From positions 10,197,001-10,261,000 of the forward strand of contig NC_083508.1 in the NCBI RefSeq assembly GCF_032362555.1: DNA of 64,000 nucleotides. Direction: 5' to 3'. Below, one piece after another: positions 16,034 to 19,000 of the stretch. A program made the position numbers and the translations under genes. The notes below the pieces were generated by a model. It searched no databases. It saw nothing but the letters and a program-made list of their open reading frames with translations, and was not told the DNA's origin. This DNA comes from Amyelois transitella. Taxonomy: Eukaryota; Arthropoda; Insecta; Lepidoptera; Pyralidae. Numbering within the stretch: the stretch's first letter is position 1; every line of letters begins with the position of its first letter.

Positions 16034-19000
16034 TCAGTATTCTTTATAGAAGCCGGCATAAGATTTCAAGCGCATGGTACTAACATTAGAAGATCCAGTG
16101 GATGTCGGTTGCCCGGGCACGGAGTACTGCGGGCGGAAGTTGGCGAAGTTGGCCGCCGCCGCCGACGGCGCGAAGCCCGGCAGCGAGCCGCCCGGCTGGA
16201 ACCCGGCCGGGAACTGCGCCATTTGTGCTGGAAGGGGGAATGAACGGTTTTAATATTTGCAGCTTCGACTTTCAAAAAAGAATACACAATATACAATACT
16301 AGTTCATTAGTTTTTTAGCCGCGACAGGATGCTGCGCGCGACAGGATGCTGCGCTCGGACATCTGCAGCCGCTGCGGCAGTGACACCTACCAGCAGTGCC
16401 GGGCACGGCGGTGGCGGCCAGCCGCAACAGGATGCTGCGCTCGGACATCTGCAGCCGCTGCGGCAGTGACACCTACCAGCAGTGCCGGGCACGGCGGTGG
16501 CGGCCAGCCGCGACAGGATGCTGCGCTCGGACATCTGCAGCCGCTGCGGCAGTGACACCTACCAGCAGTGCCGGGCACGGCGGTGGCGGCCAGCCGCGAC
16601 AGGATGCTGCGCTCGGACATCTGCAGCCGCTGCGGCAGTGACACCTACCAGCAGTGCCGGGCACGGCGGTGGCGGCCAGCCGCAACAGGATGCTGCGCTC
16701 GGACATCTGCAGCCGCTGCGGCAGTGACACCTACCAGCAGTGCCGGGCACGGCGGTGGCGGCCAGCCGCAACAGGATGCTGCGCTCGGACATCTGCAGCC
16801 GCTGCGGCAGTGACACCTACCAGCAGTGCCGGGCACGGCGGTGGCGGCCAGCCGCAACAGGATGCTGCGCTCGGACATCTGCAGCCGCTGCGGCAGTGAC
16901 ACCTACCAGCAGTGCCGGGCACGGCGGTGGCGGCCAGCCGCAACAGGATGCTGCGCTCGGACATCTGCAGCCGCTGCGGCAGTGACACCTACCAGCAGTG
17001 CCGGGCACGGCGGTGGCGGCCAGCCGCGACAGGATGCTGCGCTCGGACATCTGCAGCCGCTGCGGCAGTGACACCTACCAGCAGTGCCGGGCACGGCGGT
17101 GGCGGCCAGCCGCAACAGGATGCTGCGCTCGGACATCTGCAGCCGCTGCGGCAGTGACACCTACCAGCAGTGCCGGGCACGGCGGTGGCGGCCAGCCGCG
17201 ACAGGATGCTGCGCTCGGACATCTGCAGCCGCTGCGCCACGGGCGGGATGCGCGCCAGCGTGGCCGGCAGCCGGGACACGTCCGACTTCATGTCCGACAG
17301 CAGCTCCTCCAGCTGGTTCAGCACCTGGCGAGGGAGAGTTAAGTTGCGGTGGTTAAGTTAAGCAGCGAAATGGAAAATTGATATTGATTCGTCGACAGGT
17401 AATCGTCTTCTAAATATGACACTAACTAATTGCTTGATCAAAACTGCTGATTCATGAAATTTTAATTCCCTGTGGTTTCTGCGCCAGAGGGATTTTATTT
17501 CCGTTCTTCAATACTTTGTGCACTTTGTTTTTTTTTTCTTTTTAACTAGTGAGTGTTTTGTTAGTTTCATATTTTATAAAGTTAAACATGTTCATGATTT
17601 ACTATGTCCATAAGTCTGAAACACGGTTTATCAGACCACCCTGATCAGAGTCGTGTCTAACTGTTACCTTGTGCAGCACAGCATTGGCCGGCTTGTTCCC
17701 GGCCAGCGACTCCTTGCTGAGGTGCTGGTGGGACTCCGCCAGACACTCCACTTCGGCGAACCTCGCGTTCAGCGACATGGCGGGGTGGTTAGGGTCTTGC
17801 GTCAGGTTCAGGTACGCGGCGCGACGGAGTTGCTCCTCGATCACTAGAGCTTGCTCCAATAGCTGACAAAATGTTATATAAAGTTTAACAAAGTCCAGTA
17901 ATTCAATGTCTGAAAATGATTTTTAGAGATTTCACTACCAATATAAACCAAATAACGCTGTCAAAAGATGTAAAGATCTACCAATGTTTGATCATACACT
18001 TCTTTAGTGCAATAATCTAAGGATTTTGTGGATCTTAAATTATTATATATTTTTCTGTTATAGCAAAAAGACATACCTTAAACCTACGCGCGAGGAACTT
18101 GTTTTTAATTTCAAGGAAATTTCCCTTGCCGACGTCCATCTTGAAAGGCTCGTTGATAATTGCGAACCTTAAATCATTCTGGATGTCTTGCCAGCGGCCG
18201 TAACTAGAAATAAAACAAATGAAACTGTAAATCCAACTACGCACGGGTCGTGGATACGAGTTATAATCGTAAATCTTCATCACTTCAATATAAGATTGTT
18301 CGGCATCGTTGCCTTCACAAACACAAGATTTTTTTCGTTCATTCACTCACTCATTTAACGTTGAACTTACACACACATACCACATCTTCATCCGGGATAA
18401 GACATAGCAAACAGTAACAAAATTCCAAGGCTTCATTTAACTTGACGGATTAAGAACTTCGTCCAATAAGAAGTATGTAATTGTATCTCCAATGCCAAAT
18501 CCTGTACTCCCTACCCGAGGCCGCTGCCCTCTCTTCACTGACCCACAAAGTATGTGCCATTTTCATTCACCTTCTTTTCATACACACATGAAGATAACTC
18601 TGTTCATTTATTCAATGTGAACTTACCCGTGTGTAACAATACCGGCCAACAGCCAGTAATCGTGTCTCCGATGCCAGATCTCGTACTCCCTGCCCGGGGC
18701 CGCGGCCCTCTCTTCGTTGAGCCACAGTGTATGGAGTTCTGTGAAGCCGCCATCAGCGATGTTGAACATGAACTTGCGACGTTCCACTTTCAGCTCGTCT
18801 TCTTCTTTCACGAGGACTACGTCATCGTCGTCGTCCTCCTGGAATATACATTACATACATATATTTTATCACGTCTATACCCCTTGCTGTGCAAGCAGAG
18901 CCAACATACTAAAAGTTTTAGAAGCAATTCCGATTAAATGGCTTATTATTATGACTATTAAATAAACATTAAAATTTCAAATTACCAACGCAAAAACACA

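Follow-up and report, generated by a model that had tools for sequence, protein, structure and literature searches.

Ten identical splice donors at exon 21 of Mi-2 in Amyelois transitella, and copies of exon ends in the introns downstream

The choice among identical 5' splice sites (donors) is a classical question, studied with engineered genes. The Mi-2 gene of Amyelois transitella raises it in a natural setting, since it offers ten sequence-identical donors at one site, exon 21, and two near-identical ones at another, exon 10. Which of the ten donors is joined to the next exon, and how did such a series arise? We have analysed a window of 64,000 nt (positions 10,197,001-10,261,000 of one contig in a 327-Mb assembly of 33 contigs), together with exons from elsewhere in the genome. 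The exon 21 array appears to be the most extreme instance of something more widespread in this genome, the copying of exon sequence into the intron downstream.

The Mi-2 gene and its two donor arrays

Mi-2 lies on the minus strand from 33927 to about 16085 and was modelled by hand in 22 exons (Table 1). With donor 1 used at both exon 21 and exon 10, these exons give a frame of 1959 codons with no stops. The predicted protein carries CHDNT, two PHD fingers, a chromodomain, the SNF2 ATPase, a CHDII SANT-like domain and CHDCT2, that is, the full domain set of Mi-2 and CHD subfamily II. Its C-terminal region matches the human CHD4 chain 6ryr_W (1927 residues) with an E value of 2e-83; the chain aligns to within two residues of its own end, and the final 43 residues of the Mi-2 query have no counterpart in it. 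CHDCT2 occupies residues 1731-1877 and ends upstream of the exon 21-22 junction, and the tail encoded by exon 22 is mostly without a human CHD4 counterpart. Exon 21 is flanked by introns of 343 nt upstream and, counted from donor 1, 937 nt downstream. As a separate observation, intron 13 is apparently of the GC-AG type, with GC in place of GT at 24814 on the minus strand (CAG/GCGAGT; here and below, / marks a splice border).

Table 1. Positions in the window of the exons, arrays and exon copies discussed in the text.
Feature	Position	Strand	Remark
Mi-2 exon 21 (end of CHDCT2 and beyond), 160 nt	17165..17324	-	human CHD4 aligned through the exon
Donor 1, exon-intron border	17164..17165	-	sole donor in frame with the exon at 16227
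86-bp array, each full unit with donor CTG/GTAGGT	16317..17236	-	10.5 copies
Mi-2 exon 22 as modelled	16085..16227	-	alternatively a terminal exon extending to a TGA near 16034
Mi-2 exon 10 (PHD1), source of the 149-bp array	26854..27029	-	
149-bp array, 2.5 copies, 96% (TRF)	26620..26996	-	repeats exon end and donor
Decayed echo of exon 18 (18838-18627), in intron 18	18477..18554	-	82% over 78 nt, 179 nt downstream of its source
Decayed echo of exon 4 (31420-31273), in intron 4	31145..31188	-	86% over 44 nt
Exon of neighbouring DONSON-like gene, donor CTGAAG/GTAAGACTGG	12519..12711	+	borders read by eye
Two successive decayed echoes of the DONSON-like exon, in its intron	12722..13094	+	first echo interrupted

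The original prediction held that a minisatellite has multiplied a Mi-2 donor about tenfold, by an 86-bp unit in which the final 67 nt of exon 21 are followed by the opening 19 nt of intron 21. Both the unit and the ten donors have been confirmed. TRF reports the array at 16337-17236 with a period of 86, 10.5 copies and 99% matches, which agrees with the usual description of a minisatellite or VNTR (alike tandem units of roughly 10-100 bp), and a donorless partial eleventh unit with a 17-bp slip carries it on to about 16317. All ten donors share one 9-mer, CTGGTAGGT, and their last exonic bases are 17165, 17079, 16993, 16907, 16821, 16735, 16649, 16563, 16477 and 16391. The ten full units vary at a single position, 32, which reads C T C T T T T C C T; given this interspersed C/T, they are not a perfect stutter. 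At the local G+C, an exact match of 67 nt would arise by chance at a given offset with a probability of about 10^-35.6, and a chance origin of the 67-nt repeats is excluded. A DNA search of the assembly found a single place. The G+C is 0.71 in the array, 0.72 in exon 21 and 0.31 in the remainder of intron 21, so that the 3' edge of the array is an abrupt change to A+T-rich intron. By a simple donor table, no other GT in exon 21 or its intron scores at least 65. The pseudo-acceptor CCGCAG, said to accompany every unit, is weak evidence, as each unit contains five AG dinucleotides and its intronic piece is just 19 nt long.

The predicted frames agree with what had been claimed. Only donor 1 is in frame with the exon at 16227 and yields the open Mi-2 with its native tail. 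One or two extra units (donors 2 and 3) shift the frame into the next exon, where stops in other frames would end products of 135 and 157 residues, counted from exon 21. Three extra units reach a TAG formed by the donor, so that donors 4-10 all stop at the TAG within donor 3, as does unspliced intron 21. A reading of all units as exonic and coding is ruled out, since the unit length of 86 nt is not divisible by 3 and a TAG arises in the third donor. Early-stop transcripts from the array may be decayed.

From these features it had been argued that a core remodeller must choose among ten equivalent donors or tolerate altered C-termini. The ten donors and their effects on the frame stand. Their equivalence does not, as they are equal in sequence and unequal in position. 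The stakes are also lower than claimed, because the predicted product of any of the ten donors still holds the conserved CHDCT2 complete; donor choice at exon 21 alters a poorly conserved tail, the last 43 residues of which CHD4 lacks, and not the remodeller core.

The exon at 16227 is the next acceptor exon after exon 21, but it need not be the last one, as had been supposed. A donor-like AAT/GTTAGT follows 16085 (minus strand) inside the presumed last exon, and a pyrimidine-rich, acceptor-like CTTTTACAG/AAATCATAA was read near 15405 (minus strand). Joined together, these two sites would, by our reading, give an alternative Mi-2 end (..SSNKS).

A second duplicated donor, absent from the original prediction as was the wider pattern described below, lies at exon 10. 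Donor 1 follows 26854 (CAG/GTATAA) and donor 2 follows 26705 (CAG/GTATAT); the second is about as strong (75 vs 70 by a consensus table), and this array also ends in a partial copy without a donor. Use of donor 2 is predicted to shift the frame before PHD2, with loss of the chromodomain and the ATPase. Mi-2 is essential in Drosophila. If it is needed here as well, donor 1 of exon 10 must win often enough, since donor 2 would destroy Mi-2. Exon 10 would thus be a natural check on donor choice, at which a wrong choice should be costlier than at exon 21.

Exon echoes in Mi-2, its neighbour and kinase genes

We use the term echo for a copy of an exon's own sequence in the intron next to it, and the exon 21 array is the most expanded case we have seen. 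Self-comparison of the Mi-2 gene also revealed decayed echoes of exons 18 and 4. When the Mi-2 exons are compared with their own downstream introns, 4/21 score 58-261, while any other intron gives at most 28 and none of 21 exceeds 22 against its own upstream intron. The neighbouring DONSON-like gene, whose exon matches the PDB DONSON chain 8q6o_R (E 4.3e-5; no match in Pfam), has two echoes in succession. The first begins 10 nt past the donor, and the donor itself is repeated too (..CTGAAA/GTAAGACTGG). The identity of echoes ranges from 99% down to about 78-80% of aligned bases. The changes in eight echoes number 35 at codon position 1, 23 at position 2 and 52 at position 3, a pattern to be expected when the source exon is under constraint and its copies are not.

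We have then scored 82 exons against their flanks, namely the 22 Mi-2 exons and 60 kinase exons; the DONSON-like exon was excluded. The kinase exons were hand-picked, as partial (exon-sized) matches, from 145 kinase matches elsewhere in the genome. Twelve kinase loci were chosen first for having at least two neighbouring exons, and one (L023) was chosen as an echo look-alike; it is not an echo and is still counted. A kinase pair that resembles an echo through overlapping profile ranges was rejected as an ordinary exon pair. Flanks of at most 700 nt were clipped at the next exon. For kinases 20 nt were skipped on each side, and for Mi-2 20 nt upstream and 5 nt downstream (20 for the last exon in one run). 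There are 81 rather than 82 upstream flanks, as that of Mi-2 exon 1 was too short in the piece used. The counts are the same with the longest Mi-2 exon cut to 450 nt or whole.

At a local score of at least 34, 9/82 downstream flanks contain a match to their exon, versus 0/81 upstream flanks (two-sided binomial 0.0039, Fisher 0.0031). Raising the threshold to 55 leaves 7 to 0 (two-sided binomial 0.0156). No inverted match reaches 34 in the reverse-complemented flanks (0/82 downstream, 0/81 upstream), which rules out inverted copying. As controls, random genome pieces reach 34 in 1/2050 trials, and none of the 163 own flanks scores above 29 when reversed. An earlier control, in which exons were compared with the flanks of other kinases, reached 63 and was replaced by the random pieces; we think that this score is due to the mutual resemblance of kinase exons. 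The idea of polarity arose from the window, and the kinase set alone is the independent test; small and hand-picked as it is, it gives 5 to 0 with a two-sided p of 0.0625.

Three of the five kinase positives lie on three other contigs. L028 scores 105, with an echo at 5941-6015 without a donor; L058 scores 76, with an echo at 1265-1390 that by reading has its own GTGCGTA donor; and L027 scores 69, with two successive copies at 360-561, one of them with a donor (all in locus coordinates). L024 (42, from 21 exact nt) and L060 (35) are weak, and the former match is perhaps a target-site duplication. As echoes also occur at kinase exons on other contigs, a hot spot confined to Mi-2 is ruled out. 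Overall, the existence of echoes is clear, and the evidence for their polarity is good but not final, coming from a small hand-picked sample of one species.

Two further comparisons carry less weight. Across 20 random pieces of 10 kb each, 200 kb in all, TRF detected two arrays with a period of at least 50, both A+T-rich (G+C 0.26 and 0.19). Self-comparison of these pieces gave 33 pairs, 25 of which are common to other loci; of the remaining eight, four are A+T-rich (G+C 0.19-0.31), two lie in a histidine-rich gene, that in L018 is on inspection not exon-like, and that in L016 is the eighth. Such pieces hold few exons and are a weak control for echoes. The kinesin family (74 matches) showed no clear recent copy, judged by coordinates alone and with low power.

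Origin of the array and the choice of donor

What the analysis has shown are direct, local, downstream copies that cross or lie near a donor, at several degrees of decay. With a probability of roughly 60%, we consider the exon 21 array to be a minisatellite grown from a tandem duplication that spanned the 3' end of the exon and its 5' splice site, the first donor of which stays in use. Copies of this kind recur in this genome, as seen in the sample, and probably arose as tandem duplications. They would survive where the original donor, the one nearest the exon's own acceptor, continues to be used, and the added copies would become intron and then decay or, at exon 21, multiply and homogenise. 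By exon definition, most Mi-2 splicing is expected to go through donor 1. New C-terminal tails would seldom be produced, by use of donors 2-3, and use of donors 4-10 would lead to rare transcripts that are truncated or decayed. The downstream-only polarity would follow because donor copies need little intron and acceptor copies much: a donor can be copied with 10-20 nt of intron, whereas a copied acceptor would have to include a branch point and a polypyrimidine tract, which a short copy would lack. In addition, if the first acceptor were still used after an acceptor-side copy, frame-breaking exon sequence would be added. This may be why acceptor-side copies are missing from the sample.

The expectation for donor 1 can be compared with work on duplicated donors. 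According to PMC9225289, five minigenes with two identical donors and flanking introns of 365 nt used the upstream donor exclusively, and in human data near-equal donors between long introns favour the upstream site. The same paper reports that the downstream donor was commoner in all four classes before strength matching, and that large exons were skipped when their donors were weakened. By analogy, exon 21, with its introns of 343 and 937 nt, would belong to the long-long class that favours the upstream donor.

On the other hand, two features of the locus could speak for the opposite end of the array. Judged by the contrast in G+C, the exon would end at the last donor. Use of donor 10 leaves an intron of only 163 nt, which intron definition would favour; short introns favour the downstream donor in PMC9225289. 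The array might then be read as exon, with donor 9 or 10 joined to 16227 and the normal protein ending at the TAG of donor 3, CHDCT2 being intact and the native tail absent. We regard this as unlikely, though the strongest of the alternatives. The exon would measure 848-934 nt and its stop would precede the junction by 512-598 nt, which makes decay likely, and the same rule applied at exon 10 would destroy Mi-2.

The account of tandem duplication followed by use of the first donor does not cover everything. The donorless partial copies that end the exon 21 and exon 10 arrays are not produced by simple tandem duplication, and neither these half-unit ends nor the restart of exon sequence some 10-26 nt past the donor in four cases is accounted for; template switching is one possibility. 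The restart lies about 19 nt past the donor at exon 21, 10 nt at the DONSON-like exon, 23 nt at exon 10 (or 9 nt with a short gapped match) and about 26 nt at L028, the echo of which also lacks a donor. An active copying biased to just past the donor, for example by template switching at the exon-intron edge, would explain this pattern in place of random duplication and selection. We hold it for somewhat less probable still than use of the last donors: for L060, Mi-2 exons 4 and 18, L027 and L058 the distance from the exon (or exon match) to the start of its echo is 54-404 nt, and the lack of inverted copies in the 82 and 81 flanks fits plain tandem duplication.

It is improbable that the array serves as a tunable switch, with several donors used in a regulated ratio to make C-terminal isoforms and a copy number that varies between individuals with effect. 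The ten donors are intact and identical, as such a switch would have them, and donors 2 and 3 give products whose stop lies in the next exon and not in the penultimate one. But with one variable site per unit, intact donors need no selection, the isoform tails would be frameshift products, and the other echoes in Mi-2 have decayed. An assembly artefact in the length or existence of the array is very improbable, considering the interspersed C/T variant, the partial last unit with its 17-bp slip, the second array with its own differences and the decayed echoes elsewhere.

Relation to known duplications and intron growth

We give about even odds to the broader proposal that in this genome introns routinely receive tandem copies from the 3' part of the exon ahead of them, often together with its donor, and hardly ever copies from the 5' part of the exon that follows. 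The polarity would be a fossil record of the winning of the donor nearest the acceptor: duplicate donors would have been repeatedly created and then buried, and the introns lengthened. If the downstream-only polarity is true genome-wide, duplicated exon ends would serve as a natural record of how splice sites compete, and would be a source from which introns grow. Frequent duplication of segments within genes, which is the likeness to our cases, was reportedly described as ubiquitous internal gene duplication by Gao and Lynch in 2009.

Tandem genomic duplication is a well-documented source of introns (PMC3443670; potato RdRp, PMC4974935; Drosophila, PMC2891723), and the last of these papers refers to many duplications that touch exons in natural lines of Drosophila. 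As here, exonic sequence with splice signals was tandemly duplicated in those cases, and in potato RdRp the duplication also crosses an exon-intron boundary. The difference is that a new intron was created there, while here the copies lengthen an existing intron, on the donor side and not the acceptor side, in up to ten copies. The open Mi-2 frame would need no new intron position, as it uses the introns already present between exons 21 and 22 and between exons 10 and 11.

The duplicated-donor minigenes likewise have identical donors competing for one acceptor; these were two engineered donors in transfected cells (PMC9225289), whereas ten natural donors of an insect gene are at issue here. 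The ten donor sequences present are candidate alternative 5' splice sites. Mutually exclusive tandem exons also involve tandem duplication beside an exon, there of whole exons (PMC6071210), whereas here partial exons without an acceptor are repeated; we have rejected this class for Mi-2, as the units start inside exons 21 and 10 and have no acceptor. Among the matches listed in the open-access literature, judged by titles and the starts of abstracts, the downstream-echo pattern was not found, which does not prove its absence. What differs from the known duplications is the repeated, donor-side extension of an existing intron in one direction, one case of which is a minisatellite of ten donors.

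The window also contains other repeats. At 14813-15117, some 1 kb beyond the final modelled exon of Mi-2, lies an array of 9.8 copies of a 31-bp unit (97%, G+C 0.49), for which self-comparison gave no exon source. Copies of a dispersed repeat ('cgtctatatcccttgcggggtagacagagccaacagtcttg' and similar) occur at 20768-20947 and 20292-20470, with look-alikes at 27332-27501 and 25937-26084, and the former pair matches 18/20 of the random genome pieces.
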